Shown here: in pieces, positions 13,162-36,044 of the stretch | How positions within the stretch are numbered: the stretch's first letter is position 1 | Layout: the number at the start of each line of letters is the position of its first letter | From: an uncultured Clostridia bacterium | Lineage (GTDB): Bacteria; Bacillota; Clostridia; Lachnospirales; CAG-274 | Direction: 5' to 3' | Assembly: GCA_944376805.1 (NCBI GenBank) | Contig: CALWDX010000042.1 | Location: 1-36,265 of the forward strand | DNA length: 36,265 bases | Program-made: the position numbers and the translations under genes | The notes under the pieces: model-generated | What the model saw: the letters and a program-made list of their open reading frames with translations, nothing else | Told to the model about the DNA's origin: nothing | The model's database searches: none

Positions 13162-13566
13162 TTAATTTCTTTTACTATTAAGTCTTAAATTAGCACGTTT
13201 TAAAGCAAGTTCAGCTCTTAAAAAGTCTATATTAGCATCTTTGCTATTAAGTCTTTCTTCAGCTCTTCTTTTAGCATCTTCAGCTCTTTTAATATCAATA
13301 TCTTCTATCCATTCAGCAGAATCTGTAAGAATAGTAATAACATCTGGTTGAACATCTACAAAGCCACCAAAGAGAGTAGAAACAAGCTCTTTTTCACCGT
13401 TTTTAATTTTTAAAAGACCATAGTCAAGAGTAGTTGTAAGGGGTTGGTGTCCTTTAAGAACCCCTAAATCCCCATTAGTACCACGCATAATAACCATAGT
13501 TGCGTCATCGTTATAAAGCTCCCTAGAAGGAGTAACTATACGCAAACGTATTTTTGCATCTGCCAT
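13162..13566 (-). CDS. atpC: F-type ATP synthase epsilon subunit
   Basis: 134 aa from ATG 13566. The N-terminal beta sandwich begins with IRLRIVTPSRELYNDDATMV. GTNGDLGVLKGHQPLTTTLD is the family signature, and the two-helix C-terminal domain (RAEDAKRRAEERL...LKRANLRL) follows. Epsilon is part of the central stalk, and its C-terminal helices can inhibit ATP hydrolysis. An in-frame ATG at 13578 exists, but the AAAGGA site abuts it, so 13566 is preferred and matches the usual N-terminus. Last gene of the operon, 14-26 bases after atpD. Confidence 0.95.
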   Translation of the reverse strand: MADAKIRLRIVTPSRELYNDDATMVIMRGTNGDLGVLKGHQPLTTTLDYGLLKIKNGEKELVSTLFGGFVDVQPDVITILTDSAEWIEDIDIKRAEDAKRRAEERLNSKDANIDFLRAELALKRANLRLNSKRN

Positions 13567-13592
13567 ATTAGCAACCATTCCTTTCGCTAATA

Positions 13593-15865
<2,273 letters not shown>

Positions 15866-15877
15866 TATATCACCTCA

Positions 15878-17404
<1,527 letters not shown>

Positions 17405-17941
17405 TTAATTATTAATAAGGCTTTTTTTAATGTCTTCTAAGTTTCTTTTAATAGAATTATCTATAACTTTTCCGTCAACATTAATAAGTAAACCACCTAT
17501 AAGTTCTGGATTTACGCTAGCCTCAATAATAATTTCTTTATTTAAATTTTTAGATAAATTTTGTTTAATTTTAGTTAATTGTTCATTAGTAAGAGCAATA
17601 GCAGAGTATACATAAGCAGTAGTAATACCTTTATAATCTCTAACAAGCTCTAAAAATGTTTCAAGTATTTCTAATATTTCAGTTTCTCTATTTTTCTTAA
17701 CAACAATAGATATAAGCCCTAAAATTTCATCTGAAATATTATCTTTATAAATAGTTTGAAAAAGATTAAATTTTTCACCACCAGAAATTCTAGGGTGATT
17801 TAAAACAGCTAAAAACTCTTTATCTTCTTTAATAGAGTTATACATTAATTCTATTTGAGAATTAAATAAATCAATTTTATCTGTTTCTTTTGCTAATTCA
17901 AAAAGAGCAACTGCATATCTTTTAGAAATTAATTTTGCCAT
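17405..17941 (-). CDS. atpH: F-type ATP synthase delta subunit
   Basis: 178 aa. The protein starts MAKLISKRYAVALFELAKET, the usual delta N-terminal helical domain that clamps the top of alpha3beta3. The C-terminal half ends with VNPELIGGLLINVDGKVID, which matches the family signature. Delta links F1 to the b-subunit stator. It overlaps the end of atpF by 13 bases, and its GGGGGAAG site lies inside atpF, so translation is coupled. Confidence 0.95.
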   Translation of the reverse strand: MAKLISKRYAVALFELAKETDKIDLFNSQIELMYNSIKEDKEFLAVLNHPRISGGEKFNLFQTIYKDNISDEILGLISIVVKKNRETEILEILETFLELVRDYKGITTAYVYSAIALTNEQLTKIKQNLSKNLNKEIIIEASVNPELIGGLLINVDGKVIDNSIKRNLEDIKKSLINN

Positions 17942-18447
17942 TTAACTTCCCCCAAATCTGCAATAACTTGGTCAACAAGTTTGTTTTGTTCAGCCTCATT
18001 AATATTTTGGCTAATAAATTTACTAGCTACTAAAGAAGATACTTCAATAATTTGTAATCTAACTTCTTCTTTAGCTTTATCTTGTTCTCTTTGAATATCA
18101 AGCATAGCTCTGTTTTTAATAGCTTCTGCTTCTTTTTTAGCTTCTTCTATTATTTGAGCCTCATTTTGTTTAGCACGAGCACGAGCCTCTTCTAATATAG
18201 TAGCTTTTTCTTTTTCAATTTCACTAATTTTAAGTTCATATTCTGCTTTAAGACTATCAGCATCAGCAAGTTTTTTATTTGCCTCATTTATGTTATTTTC
18301 AATACGTTCTCTACGTTTTTGTAAAAATTGTGTAACAGGTATGTATAATAAGTAAGATAAAAGAGCACATAAAATACCTGTTGATATTAATTGTATAATA
18401 ACACCATAGAGAAGTTGCATATCTAAAGTAAGTATAAAGCTATCCAA
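17929..18447 (-). CDS. atpF: F-type ATP synthase b subunit
   Basis: 172 aa from TTG 18447. One N-terminal transmembrane helix (about residues 12-34, GVIIQLISTGILCALLSYLL) is followed by a long charged helix rich in Glu/Lys/Ala (RERIENNINEANKKLADADS...). This is the peripheral stalk that holds delta and F1. The upstream ATG 18468 lies inside the sequence AATGAAAGGAGG, before the ribosome binding site, so it cannot be the start. The site AAAGGAGG is about 10 bases before TTG 18447. A single b gene is present, with no b' copy. Confidence 0.93.
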   Translation of the reverse strand: MDSFILTLDMQLLYGVIIQLISTGILCALLSYLLYIPVTQFLQKRRERIENNINEANKKLADADSLKAEYELKISEIEKEKATILEEARARAKQNEAQIIEEAKKEAEAIKNRAMLDIQREQDKAKEEVRLQIIEVSSLVASKFISQNINEAEQNKLVDQVIADLGEVKWQN

Positions 18448-18502
18448 GAAAATTTGCCCTCCTTTCATTTTTCTAACTATGTAGAAAAATTATTAAATGT
18501 TA

Positions 18503-18772
<270 letters not shown>

Positions 18773-18843
18773 CTAAAAAATATAAAATTTTTTAAATATA
18801 AAGTTTTTAAATTTTTGCTAATGTTTAGCAATGTTTTTGGTGA

Positions 18844-19536
18844 TTATTCACCAATTTTATCTTTTATAAATGTCATACTAAGTATAACAAAGATAAACGT
18901 TTGTAAGAAACCAGCAAATACATCAAAATAAGCATGTAAAACTGGTGTGATAGCACCAAAGCCCACCACTTGTAATAAAATAGGGCCTTGAGATAAGGCA
19001 GAGTTTATAAGCCCCATAATAATTGTACCACCTAATATATTACCAAACAAACGTAGGCTAAGAGATATAGGAGTAGCTATTTCACCTATAATATTAAGTG
19101 GTAATAATACAGGCATAGGCTCTATATATCCTTTGAAATACGCCCCTCCATTCACTTTTATCCCCATAAAATGTATAAGAGTAAATGTAGACAATGAAAG
19201 AGCAAGTGTTGTTGCAAGGTCTGCTGTTGGCGACCTAAAAGATAATAACCCAATATAGTTAGAAGTTAAAATAAAACAAAAAACACCAAAAAACCAATTA
19301 CCAAAATATTTGTATTTTTCTCCCATATTTTGAATTGTAAAGTTTTCCATTGTTTCAATAATAAGTTCAACTATATTTTGTAACTTTGTTGTAGGAACAT
19401 CTGTAAACTTATTTATTTTAGACCTAAGAATTAAAGCTACAATGGTAAGAACAATAATGATAATCCAAGTATTCATCATTGTTTGTGTTATATTAACACC
19501 ACCAATTTGAGTTATAATTTTAGCACCAAAGTCCAT
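18844..19536 (-). CDS. atpB: F-type ATP synthase a subunit
   Basis: 230 aa from ATG 19536, with GGGAGG 7 bases upstream. The upstream in-frame Met at 19569 precedes the site and is rejected. Five or six transmembrane helices are visible. The essential stator arginine is Arg162 in SLRLFGNILGG, and PTADLATTLALSLSTF is the other family signature. HAYFDVFAGFLQTFIF lies in the last helices. Subunit a provides the two half-channels next to the c ring, here presumably for Na+. First structural gene after the internal promoter at 19677-19706. Confidence 0.96.
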   Translation of the reverse strand: MDFGAKIITQIGGVNITQTMMNTWIIIIVLTIVALILRSKINKFTDVPTTKLQNIVELIIETMENFTIQNMGEKYKYFGNWFFGVFCFILTSNYIGLLSFRSPTADLATTLALSLSTFTLIHFMGIKVNGGAYFKGYIEPMPVLLPLNIIGEIATPISLSLRLFGNILGGTIIMGLINSALSQGPILLQVVGFGAITPVLHAYFDVFAGFLQTFIFVILSMTFIKDKIGE

Positions 19537-19589: not shown

Positions 19590-19649
19590 TAGGTTATTTT
19601 ATAACCTATTTATTTAAAATAAAGTATAAAAAATACTTTATTAAATAAA
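19590..19649 (-). other. Structured leader of atpB
   Basis: Two inverted repeats lie in the 134-base leader between the internal promoter and atpB. TAGGTTAT/ATAACCTA has arms 19590-19597 and 19601-19608. A longer hairpin has inner arms 19618-19627 and 19633-19642 and outer arms 19609-19615 and 19643-19649. Neither has a T-run in the direction of transcription, so they look like mRNA-stabilising or translation-affecting structures rather than terminators. All are AT-rich. Confidence 0.45.
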
Positions 19650-19676
19650 CTAAAGGTTTTTGACTTTCAACTATAT

Positions 19677-19706
19677 ATTATACACTTTTTAATATCAAAA
19701 CGTCAA
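19677..19706 (-). promoter_or_regulatory. Internal promoter in front of atpBEFHAGDC
   Basis: On the minus strand TTGACG (19706-19701) overlaps the atpI stop codon. An 18-base spacer and TATAAT (19682-19677) follow. The start near 19670 gives a leader of about 134 bases before atpB. It would let the eight structural genes be made in excess over atpZ, the duplicated gene and atpI. Confidence 0.72.
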
Positions 19707-20074
19707 CCTTGATTTTTTTTATTTTTAAAGTTTACTATATATATAGCAGGTACTGTTAATAAAATACCTATTATAACACCTATAATATTAAAATCTCTAA
19801 AAACTGCTATTAAAAGTACAATAAATGTTAAAAAGTATCTTAATGTATAGTGTATTCTTGTATAATTTACAGCTTTTGCACCAGTCATATCCATAGCCTT
19901 GTTTAATGTTTTTTCTAAGAGTATAAGTTTTAATATGGAAAATATTGTACCAAATGCAAGTCCTATTAAAAATGATTTTACATCAGAAACTATAAATGTA
20001 GCAATACCAAAGATTATACAGAATAAAGCAATAGTAGTTACTATTATTTGTTTTGAAGTATCAGATATTTTCAT
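19703..20074 (-). CDS. atpI: ATP synthase subunit I family protein
   Basis: 123 aa, four predicted transmembrane helices. These include IIVTTIALFCIIFGIATFIV, FLIGLAFGTIFSILKLILLE and a last pair IHYTLRYFLTFIVLLIAVF and IIGVIIGILLTVPAIYIV. The LxxGxxxGxxxSxLKL pattern and the position directly before atpB match the ATP-synt_I family, which helps assemble the c ring and with AtpZ has been linked to Mg2+/Ca2+ uptake in alkaliphilic Bacillus. It overlaps the preceding two-module AtpZ-like gene by 14 bases, so the two are translationally coupled. Confidence 0.85.
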   Translation of the reverse strand: MKISDTSKQIIVTTIALFCIIFGIATFIVSDVKSFLIGLAFGTIFSILKLILLEKTLNKAMDMTGAKAVNYTRIHYTLRYFLTFIVLLIAVFRDFNIIGVIIGILLTVPAIYIVNFKNKKNQG

Positions 20075-20501
20075 TCTTTTTTCTCCTAAATATCAACTTA
20101 TAATTTATGTTAAATTTTTTAAAGAATATAAACAAATTAAAAGCAATAGAAATAATTAAAAATAAAATACAAAATATATAATTTGATTTATAATATTTAT
20201 CAATAACATTACCTATTATAAAACATATAAAAGTTAGTAAAATGCTTTCTACTATAAAATTAATAGTATAAATATATTTATTTTTATGTATAGGGTTACA
20301 ATCAAAATCTTTCATTATTTTAAAAAAGAAATTTATAAAAGAAGATACAAGGCTTAATATAATAAATATTAGTAAAAATAAAGGTGAAGTATTTAAAATT
20401 TTATTAAGTTTTTTACCAATAAATATACCTACAATAACACTAGTTATAATAATAAATCCAAATAGGCTATATATAGTATAACCTTTAAAATCATTTTTCA
20501 A
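20061..20501 (-). CDS. Two-module AtpZ-like membrane protein
   Basis: 146 aa, four predicted transmembrane helices in two similar halves. Residues about 12-64 (IVGIFIGKKLNKILNTSPLF..., then LIFIILSLVSSFINFF) align with the AtpZ neighbour's CFFIGKWLDEKIGSNFVFLP and IFIILGIGAAFRNLY. Residues about 77-130 (ICFIIGNVIDKYYKSNYIF..., then ILFLIISIAFNLFIFF) repeat the same pattern: a helix ending in IG, a short charged link with (L/I)(N/D)K, and a second helix. I read it as an internal duplication of an AtpZ hairpin. It overlaps atpZ by 11 bases and atpI by 14, so it is part of the same unit. I do not know it as a standard atp-operon gene. Confidence 0.7.
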   Translation of the reverse strand: MKNDFKGYTIYSLFGFIIITSVIVGIFIGKKLNKILNTSPLFLLIFIILSLVSSFINFFFKIMKDFDCNPIHKNKYIYTINFIVESILLTFICFIIGNVIDKYYKSNYIFCILFLIISIAFNLFIFFKKFNINYKLIFRRKKNENI

Positions 20502-20754
20502 TTTTTTTATATCCTAAAAGTTCTCTTTCTTTTTCTTCTTTTTTCTCTTCTTTTCTATATTCTAACATAACCATAACATATAAGTTTCTAAAGGCTGCAC
20601 CTATACCTAAAATAATAAATATAGGTAAAAAAACAAAATTACTACCTATTTTTTCATCAAGCCATTTACCTATAAAAAAGCACATACCAATAGTAACAAC
20701 CATAGTTATAGCTACTTGAGTTAGTTTAGATAAGGCTCTAGCAATACCATTCAT
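20491..20754 (-). CDS. atpZ: AtpZ / ATPase gene 1 family membrane protein
   Basis: 87 aa, two transmembrane helices with the AtpZ motif IGKWLDEKIGS between them (residues 28-38), then a charged tail (YRKEEKKEEKEREL). Family knowledge: small proteins encoded before atpI or atpB that assist ATP synthase assembly and, with AtpI, have been implicated in divalent cation transport. AAGGGGTG precedes ATG 20754. It begins the run of three overlapping small membrane genes ahead of the ATP synthase genes. Confidence 0.8.
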   Translation of the reverse strand: MNGIARALSKLTQVAITMVVTIGMCFFIGKWLDEKIGSNFVFLPIFIILGIGAAFRNLYVMVMLEYRKEEKKEEKERELLGYKKIEK

Positions 20755-20780: not shown

Positions 20781-20809
20781 ATTATATACTTATTAATTAA
20801 AAAAATCTA
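20781..20809 (-). promoter_or_regulatory. Possible promoter of atpZ and the atp operon
   Basis: On the minus strand TAGATT (20809-20804), 17-base spacer, TATAAT (20786-20781), in the 58-base gap after wecB. The -35 box is weak. Read-through from wecB is also possible because no terminator is seen in the gap. Confidence 0.45.
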
Positions 20810-30986: not shown

Positions 30987-31012
30987 AAGCAACCCCTTAA
31001 GGGGCTTTTTTA
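30987..31012 (+). terminator. Terminator inside the IS200 element
   Basis: CCCCTTAAGGGG (30993-31004) with a following T-run CTTTTTTAT on the plus strand. It can end transcripts reading in from the lipoprotein gene and so protects tnpA from antisense transcription. Confidence 0.7.
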
Positions 31013-31387
31013 TGATTTGGCATTCTTATCACCCATAAACGTGTCCATATATTCTTTTAGTGTCATTTGGGCTGTTGCTATATCTTCTTGTAACTGATTT
31101 CTTATATATTCTTCTATTACTTTTTTAGTTTTTCCTACTATATCTACATAATATCCTTTGCACCAAAAATGTCTATTCCTATACTTGTATTTTAAATTTG
31201 CATGTTTATCAAATATCATTAAACTACTTTTTACTTTTAAATATCCCATAAATTCACATAATTTTCTTAATATTTTTCCTATATCTTCTTTTATTTTTCC
31301 ATATATCACTTGTCTTCTATATTTTGGTGCAAATACTATATGATATTTGCAATTCCACTTTATATGTGCTAAACTATTATTATCCAT
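31010..31387 (-). pseudogene. tnpA: TnpA-like IS200 transposase with internal deletion of the HUH motif
   Basis: 125 aa from ATG 31387. The N-terminus MDNNSLAHIKWNCKYHIVFA and PKYRRQVIYGKIKEDIGKIL match IS200/IS605 Y1 transposases. At residue 45-46 (KLCE|FMGYLK, base about 31250) the protein jumps from the helix before the HUH motif to the segment after it. About 30-36 residues that normally include the HIH metal motif are missing, without a frameshift. The Tyr nucleophile (Y94 in EEYIRNQ) and WCKGYYVD remain. Normal TnpA is about 150-155 residues. Without the His pair, cleavage is not expected. AAAGGAG lies 10 bases before the ATG. Confidence 0.82.
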
Positions 31388-31397
31388 TTTTGTATAT

Positions 31398-31449
31398 CTC
31401 CTTTGTTTTATATATGGTTGGTAAACCCATATATATTTTTCAACAGGAG
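31398..31449 (-). promoter_or_regulatory. RNA structure masking the tnpA ribosome binding site
   Basis: On the minus strand CTCCTGTT (31449-31442) can pair with AACAAAGGAG (31407-31398) with a 2-base bulge, around an inner hairpin TATATATGG/CCATATATA (31427-31435 and 31409-31417). The paired AAAGGAG is the tnpA ribosome site. IS200 elements are known to hold tnpA translation down in this way. Confidence 0.6.
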
Positions 31450-31488
31450 GTTCTTTTTTTATACTCATCAGCTTCGCTTTTTTTGAAC

Positions 31489-34445: not shown

Positions 34446-36044
34446 ATGTCAAGTTATATTTTAGTTGTATCATTAGTTATTTTTATATGTTTGTTTCTAA
34501 ATAAAGTTTCTAACAAATTAGGGCTTCCAACTTTACTTTTATTTATATTTTTAGGAATGTTATTTGGTTCAGATGGAATATTTAAAATATATTTTGATAA
34601 TTATATTGTATCAGAATATATATGTTCAATAGCTTTAATATTTATTATGTTTTATGGTGGATTTGGTACTAATTGGGAAAGGGCAAAACCTATAGCAACA
34701 AAATCTATATTATTATCTACTATAGGTGTAATTTTAACATCATTAATAGTTGGTATATTTTGTTATTATATATTAAAATTTGAATTTCTTGAAAGTATGT
34801 TAATAGGAGCTGTTATAAGTTCAACAGATGCTGCTTCTGTATTTTCTATTTTAAGGTCTAAACGTTTAAATTTAAAATATAATACAGCATCATTGTTAGA
34901 AGTAGAAAGTGGGAGTAATGACCCTTGTGCTAACATACTTACAATAGTTATTTTATCTTTTATGAGTAGTCAAAGTAATGACACTAATATTTTATATATG
35001 GTATTTGCACAAGTTGTATATGGTATTGTTTTAGGTATAATAGTAGCATTATTAGCTTCAGTTATTTTAACTAAAGCTAAATTTTCAACAGAAGGTTTTG
35101 CCTCAATTTTTGTTTTTGGAGTTGCACTAATTTCTTATTCTGCTACAACTTTTATAGGTGGTAATGGATATTTGAGTACTTATATTACGGGGATAATTTT
35201 AGGAAATAAAGCAATACCTAATAAAAAACCACTTGTAAACTTTTTTAATGGTATTACAGGACTTATGCAAATATTAATATTTTTCTTATTGGGCTTATTA
35301 TCTTTTCCATCACAGTTGCCAAAAGTTTTTTTACCAGCTTTAGCTATTGCACTTTTTTTAACATTTGTAGCAAGACCTTTAGCCGTTTTTATTATATTAA
35401 AACCTTTTAAATGTCCAATAAATCAACAACTTTTAATTTCGTGGTCTGGCTTAAGGGGGGCAGCGTCAATAGTTTTTGCTATAATACCTATTGTTAGTCC
35501 AGCATACACTCAAAATGATATTTTTCATATAGTATTTTTTATTGTTTTATTTTCAATAGCAATACAAGGTTCACTTATACCATTTGTAGCTAAAAAATTA
35601 GATATGATAGATGATGAAAATGATGTAATGAAAACATTTAGTGATTATTCAGAAGAAATACCATTACAATTTATAAAGTTATTTATAGGTAATAATCACC
35701 CTTGGAAAAATAAAAGAATTAAGGAAATATCTTCTTTACCAGATATTTTAACAGTATTAATAATTAGAAAAGATAAACAAATTGTGCCTAATGGGGATAC
35801 TTTAATTTTAGAAGAAGATATTGTTATATTAACAGGACCATCATTAGATGATGAACCTTTTGGTTATTTAACAGAAGTTAAAATAGAAAAAGATAGTGAT
35901 TGGCTTAATATGTCATTATGTGATATAAAATTTAATCAAAATAAATTAATTATTTTAATAAAAAGAGATAAAGAGGCTATTATACCAACAGGAAAAACAA
36001 TAATTTTAGAAAATGATATACTTATAATTAGTAATCAATATTAA
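34446..36044 (+). CDS. K+/H+ antiporter (CPA1 type) with RCK_C tail
   Basis: 532 aa. About the first 385 residues are a CPA-type antiporter with around 12 membrane helices. Signatures include LGMLFGSDGI, GAVISSTDAASVFSILRS (the Asp-containing ion site), EVESGSNDPCANILTIVIL and the ISWSGLRGAASIVFAI segment. The remaining 130 residues are cytoplasmic and hold two RCK_C-like modules: IKEISSLPDILTVLIIRKDK with LILEEDIVILTG, then SLCDIKFNQNKLIILIKRDK with IILENDILIIS. This matches the NhaP2/CvrA family exporting K+ (or Na+) for H+. Small-molecule control through RCK_C is likely but the ligand is not shown. AAAGGAGGG precedes ATG 34446. Confidence 0.88.
   Translation: MSSYILVVSLVIFICLFLNKVSNKLGLPTLLLFIFLGMLFGSDGIFKIYFDNYIVSEYICSIALIFIMFYGGFGTNWERAKPIATKSILLSTIGVILTSLIVGIFCYYILKFEFLESMLIGAVISSTDAASVFSILRSKRLNLKYNTASLLEVESGSNDPCANILTIVILSFMSSQSNDTNILYMVFAQVVYGIVLGIIVALLASVILTKAKFSTEGFASIFVFGVALISYSATTFIGGNGYLSTYITGIILGNKAIPNKKPLVNFFNGITGLMQILIFFLLGLLSFPSQLPKVFLPALAIALFLTFVARPLAVFIILKPFKCPINQQLLISWSGLRGAASIVFAIIPIVSPAYTQNDIFHIVFFIVLFSIAIQGSLIPFVAKKLDMIDDENDVMKTFSDYSEEIPLQFIKLFIGNNHPWKNKRIKEISSLPDILTVLIIRKDKQIVPNGDTLILEEDIVILTGPSLDDEPFGYLTEVKIEKDSDWLNMSLCDIKFNQNKLIILIKRDKEAIIPTGKTIILENDILIISNQY

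Follow-up and report, generated by a model that had tools for sequence, protein, structure and literature searches.

Few products of bacterial atp operons are as poorly understood as AtpZ. In Bacillus pseudofirmus OF4, where it is encoded immediately upstream of atpI, it helps the cell acquire Mg2+ (PMC4453477). AtpI, in turn, assists assembly of the c-ring; the Na+ synthase of Acetobacterium woodii is a case in point and requires its own AtpI (PMC8904574, PMC4154653). PMC4154653 also places AtpQ of the N-type ATPases in the AtpZ family, reports duplications of atpI-type genes within the locus (called "I" and "sI"), and carries the proposal that AtpI-type genes themselves stem from duplication of an AtpZ-type gene.

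The window analyzed here, the whole of a 36,265 nucleotide stretch from an uncultured Clostridia bacterium, adds a further gene to this picture. On its minus strand, the genes run in the order wecB, atpZ, an extra gene, atpI, and atpB-E-F-H-A-G-D-C. An earlier note on this DNA had described a 146 amino acid reading frame lying between atpZ and atpI and overlapping both, and had seen that three AtpZ-like hairpins and AtpI precede the genes of the ATP synthase. Gene order and coordinates bear this out. The frame is a real gene, encoding a four-helix protein with two AtpZ-type (PF09527) hairpins; it begins with a TTG codon at position 20501 and shares 11 nt with atpZ and 14 nt with atpI. The features of the locus are as follows.

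20491..20754, minus strand: atpZ, 87 aa, a single AtpZ hairpin (PF09527, 4.8e-18)
20512..20515, minus strand: AGGA, 10 nt before the TTG of the extra gene and likely its ribosome-binding site (read from the sequence)
20061..20501, minus strand: the extra gene, a fused double AtpZ-type gene (2 x AtpZ), from its open reading frame, PF09527, an ortholog in genome G007 and purifying selection
20083..20087, minus strand: AGGAG, atpI ribosome-binding site within the 3' end of the extra gene (sequence)
19703..20074, minus strand: atpI, 123 aa, four helices (PF03899, 2.7e-8)
13162..19536, minus strand: structural genes atpB-E-F-H-A-G-D-C (open reading frames and gene order)

The four helices of AtpI come from a single-sequence prediction, which is weak (pLDDT 71). 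Within the extra gene, at its 3' end, TTTAGGAGAAAAAAGAATG serves as the codons for F-R-R-K-K-N and also holds the atpI ribosome-binding site; relatives that lack the extra gene carry the same TTTTAGGAGAAAA motif in the gap between atpZ and atpI. Thus, the conservation of the C-terminal tail partly reflects the translation of atpI, not the protein itself.

The case for two AtpZ hairpins is made by profiles. As a whole, the protein scores 57.2 bits (1.7e-15) against PF09527, above the curated membership cut-off of 26.6 bits, in two stretches.

20325..20474, minus strand: first AtpZ-type hairpin, residues 10-59 (PF09527, 42.7 bits, above the cut-off)
20130..20240, minus strand: conserved core of the second AtpZ-type hairpin, residues 88-124 (PF09527, 24.3 bits)

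The earlier note had drawn the two halves at about residues 12-64 and 77-130, which agrees with these stretches and with the four predicted helices. Searched separately, half 1 (residues 1-66) obtains 43.5 bits and half 2 obtains 24.6 bits (2.6e-5), slightly below the cut-off. In the ortholog from G007, half 2 by itself reaches 34.3 bits, above the cut-off, and the entire protein 75.4 bits. Profile-profile comparison with 76 AtpZ sequences returns probabilities of 98.7% for half 1 and 95.4% for half 2, with 60.8% for the two halves against each other. A custom model, made from 54 AtpZ proteins of relatives, gives 48.8 and 23.5 bits for the halves of the window protein and 56.8 and 29.4 bits for those of the ortholog; the best unrelated reading frame among 695 has 9.8 bits. 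No plain shuffle of any half, from about 4,900, attained the real score. Where shuffling kept the pattern of hydrophobic and polar residues (5,000 shuffles per half), one did so for half 2 of the window protein and none for the other three halves, which is one in 20,000. The proposal of two AtpZ-type halves therefore stands.

The protein shows no such kinship to AtpI. Compared with the AtpI profile, it has a probability of 0.8%, and half 2 compared with the halves of AtpI has 1.0-3.9%; AtpZ and AtpI themselves give 11%, no clear relation. An AtpI model scores either half at 2.5 bits or less, and neither PF03899 (AtpI) nor PF12966 (AtpR) is among the Pfam matches listed for the protein up to an E of 10. 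At the atpZ-atpI junction of another genome of the genus (G002, locus L123), the double protein has tblastn and profile matches that extend from atpZ into atpI. The tblastn match gave the idea that half 2 derives from AtpI, an origin rejected on the profile comparison, which does not support such a relation. Pairwise, each half is mostly nearer to AtpZ than to the other half, a similarity that fits either two fused copies of AtpZ or an old internal duplication.

Kinship does not, of course, make the extra protein a second AtpZ. The glycine at the end of helix 1 is kept in all four halves of the two proteins, and the aspartate of the link in three of the four, half 1 of the window protein having asparagine instead. 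Helix 2 is different. AtpZ usually, if not universally, has a glycine there (67 of 73 sequences) and an arginine (50 of 76), and both halves lack both. In half 1, the glycine has become serine or alanine and the arginine isoleucine; in half 2, there is serine or no aligned residue. The protein has thus diverged from AtpZ in one specific part of the hairpin. This loss in both halves indicates a diverged paralog rather than a spare AtpZ, and means that the protein need not share AtpZ's activity. Further, AtpZ is a single two-helix hairpin. Here, four helices are predicted in 146 residues, and the protein is therefore placed in the PF09527 family as a fused double paralog, not as AtpZ itself.

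AlphaFold2, given the AtpZ alignment, predicts two helical hairpins (helices 4-36, 41-66, 70-103 and 109-144) with pLDDT 81.7 and pTM 0.52, the packing of one hairpin against the other being uncertain. Positive charge is highest in the C-terminal tail (seven K/R, one D/E) and in the link between the hairpins (four K/R, two D/E), which suggests that both ends and the middle link are probably cytoplasmic. Sequence searches found no relative of solved structure. The matches from comparison of folds were all unspecific and helical, and nothing is drawn from them: the best E in Foldseek is 2.6, and VIA-align gives YnaI with Z 7.4 and rmsd 7.5 over 132 residues.

The ortholog in G007, a different species of the genus, occupies the same position in its locus, has the same length, and is 55% identical without an indel. 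Between the two genes, dN is 0.29 and dS 0.65, a ratio of about 0.45, and changes fall 52/22/49 over the three codon positions. Nonsynonymous changes are in deficit relative to synonymous ones over the whole gene (Fisher p = 0.0008) and also in each half taken separately, at p = 0.004 for half 1 and p = 0.04 for half 2 once the overlap is set aside. When an equal number of changes was simulated under neutrality, 99.85% of 2,000 runs acquired a stop codon; the intact frame, free of indels, therefore implies that the reading frame has been maintained. Selection is laxer here than in atpZ (dN/dS 0.29) and atpI (0.33), and dN is the highest among the genes compared. The laxer ratio alone does not imply decay, because membrane proteins tolerate swaps among hydrophobic residues. 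In the same pair of genomes, dS falls to about 0.2 across atpE-F-H (17405-18760), versus 0.54-0.75 in atpZ, atpI, atpB, wecB and thiF; this looks like homologous recombination inside the operon, or strong codon constraint.

How widely is the gene distributed? Two of the eight genomes of the genus have it, that of the window (G000) and G007. In the other six, atpI follows atpZ directly at a distance of 0-32 bp, and no remnant of the gene is left. No further fused double AtpZ turned up in samples of 48 family, 392 order and 391 class genomes, nor in a PF09527 scan of 398 phylum genomes. These samples, all within the phylum, overlap and had limited candidates scored per genome, and a strongly diverged second half could escape them. 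The arrangement, which the earlier note did not recognize, is thus rare. Eleven other phylum genomes have two PF09527 matches, with the copies at separate places and never fused or adjacent. A contig scan with the window protein alone found no relative; the only record recovered with a two-row alignment was that of G007 (CAMMIW010000009.1, from an uncultured Eubacteriaceae MAG). No relative of the protein was found in phages and plasmids. The operon tree pairs the two carriers (FastTree 0.96, IQ-TREE bootstrap 55, in a set that includes a mis-assigned AtpD from G006), as does a five-gene tree (61-70%); a tree of SerRS alone does not group them. A single gain in their common ancestor is weakly favored, the alternatives being losses or recombination.

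Two promoter-like sites frame the accessory genes.

20781..20786, minus strand: TATAAT box in the wecB-atpZ gap, likely promoter of atpZ, the extra gene and atpI (by eye)
19677..19706, minus strand: second promoter-like site, TTGACG-18-TATAAT, between atpI and atpB (11/12)

By eye, the first box is clear in seven of the eight genus genomes and less so in G002. The second has the best score in the region (11 of 12), where such sites number no more than chance would give; directly after atpI, TTGAC...GTGTATAAT is kept in all eight members of the genus, with 17-18 nt between TTGAC and TATAAT. With these putative promoters, atpZ, the extra gene (where present) and atpI may be driven separately from the structural atp genes. 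Just past the second site, the atpB leader (19608-19650, minus strand) contains an A/T-rich hairpin of 18 pairs, kept in 8/8 genomes. Two of its pairs have changed on both sides, and 98.6% of its cells are paired, versus 36-49% in slid controls; support from covariation is thin, most pairs being invariant. The hairpin is possibly an element for mRNA stability or translation.

The earlier note had also called the synthase a Na+ enzyme. The closest solved relatives of its c subunit are indeed Na+ c-rings, including 4bem (F1FO ATPase c1/c2), from A. woodii, and 1yce (a sodium-ion-specific c subunit), from I. tartaricus. Gln and Glu-Thr-Thr, the residues of a Na+ site, are also present in the c subunit. 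"Na+-type" is therefore a fair label from the sequence. Elsewhere in the window, a large reading frame (34446-36044, plus strand) resembles by eye a cation/proton antiporter that has a regulatory part at its C-terminus. An IS200-like transposase (31010-31468, minus strand) matches PF01797 in two separate stretches, its middle part seemingly absent by eye, and is probably a decayed insertion element.

What might the extra protein do? The reading preferred here, with a probability of roughly 0.55, is that it is an additional, diverged partner in an AtpZ-AtpI accessory module of the Na+-type F-ATP synthase, active in Fo assembly or ion handling. On this proposal, a lineage-specific paralog of atpZ, with two AtpZ hairpins joined head to tail, would give a four-helix protein of the inner membrane, both ends probably cytoplasmic. 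AtpZ, the extra protein and AtpI would be read together from their overlapping frames downstream of one promoter-like site, the structural subunits being served by their own. The extra protein would pair in the membrane with AtpZ, AtpI or both, and would aid assembly of the Na+-type Fo (the c-ring or the a subunit); alternatively, its role might be in handling Mg2+ or other cations. This reading is favored because the halves match AtpZ and not AtpI, because G007 shares the overlapping position, and because of the selection, the conserved promoter-like sites, the predicted hairpins, and the literature on AtpI and AtpZ (PMC8904574, PMC4154653, PMC4453477). The published work likewise makes plausible the suggestion in the earlier note of a dedicated complex for assembly or cation handling. 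However, the gene is missing from six of the eight genomes of the genus, which makes it dispensable for assembly in general and counts against the module; the loss of the helix-2 residues, the weak likeness of half 2 to AtpZ, the laxer selection and the pTM of 0.52 weaken it further. A bolder version is improbable: a pre-fused AtpZ dimer, lacking the helix-2 motif, might act as an asymmetric scaffold in an AtpZ/AtpI membrane complex of fixed stoichiometry that builds or guards the Na+ c-ring. If true, this would be an accessory complex undescribed for any ATP synthase.

Other explanations must be weighed against the module. Pfam names PF09527 a putative Ca2+/Mg2+ transporter, AtpZ aids Mg2+ acquisition, and there is a suggestion that ties it to mitochondrial calcium uniporters (PMC4453477). 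The fused hairpins might therefore be part of a larger pore, a subunit of a channel or transporter for Mg2+ or Ca2+, linked to the ATP synthase only by co-expression. However, the protein shows no new acidic pore motif; half 2 offers one link aspartate, and half 1 in the window has asparagine where AtpZ has aspartate. The absence of an outstanding fold match also speaks against a pore, although it is weak evidence either way. Such a subunit is judged unlikely.

It is similarly doubtful that the gene is a drifting duplicate with almost no function, kept because it is young and short and overlaps the start of atpI, where damage can harm atpI translation. Drift would suit a gene missing from most relatives, with the highest dN of those compared and a conserved tail encoded by the ribosome-binding site of its neighbor. 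It does not suit a frame intact without indels, which nearly all neutral simulations destroyed, or the nonsynonymous deficit seen in half 1 and in half 2 outside the overlap. By far the least credible explanation is that shared hydrophobicity alone makes an unrelated four-helix membrane protein look like AtpZ. The protein is rich in Ile and Phe, half 2 in the window sits just under the Pfam cut-off, and the NCBIfam model TIGR02230 gives 20.4 bits, below its cut-off of 46.7. Yet TIGR02230 also misses the undoubted AtpZ of the window (13.9 bits), half 2 of the ortholog clears the Pfam cut-off, profile-profile probabilities are 95-99%, and shuffles that preserve the hydrophobic/polar pattern hardly ever attain the real scores.

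The natural two-hairpin fusion suggests that AtpZ hairpins act at least pairwise, beside AtpI, and provides a ready construct to probe whether AtpZ, in assembly or ion handling, functions as a dimer or oligomer. It also touches the idea that AtpI arose by AtpZ duplication: a doubling of the hairpin did occur here, yet the product shows no relation to AtpI in sequence. The reach of these remarks is limited to a gene known from two genomes.

Among described proteins, the nearest is AtpZ (PF09527; B. pseudofirmus OF4). The extra protein shares with it a helix 1 with a near-invariant terminal Gly, a charged link with Asp or Asn, and a helix 2, as well as a locus immediately upstream of atpI in the atp operon. 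It differs in having two hairpins per chain, in lacking the helix-2 Gly and Arg, and in being present in addition to a normal AtpZ. AtpI/UncI (PF03899) is likewise a four-helix membrane protein of similar size from the same operon, and a possible partner, but is unrelated by sequence or profile. AtpQ (PF09527) and AtpR (PF12966) of the N-type ATPases offer a parallel: they too are small membrane proteins added to an atp operon. There, however, the order is beta-epsilon-Q-R-a-c-b-alpha-gamma, while the operon here is an ordinary F-type one, and no fused double hairpin is described for them in the text consulted. The "I" and "sI" duplications in PMC4154653 also double an AtpZ/AtpI-type gene within the atp locus, but as separate PF09527 or PF03899 genes, whereas in the present locus a third gene joins two PF09527 hairpins. 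To the extent of the literature and genome samples covered, a fused double AtpZ beside a normal AtpZ is new.
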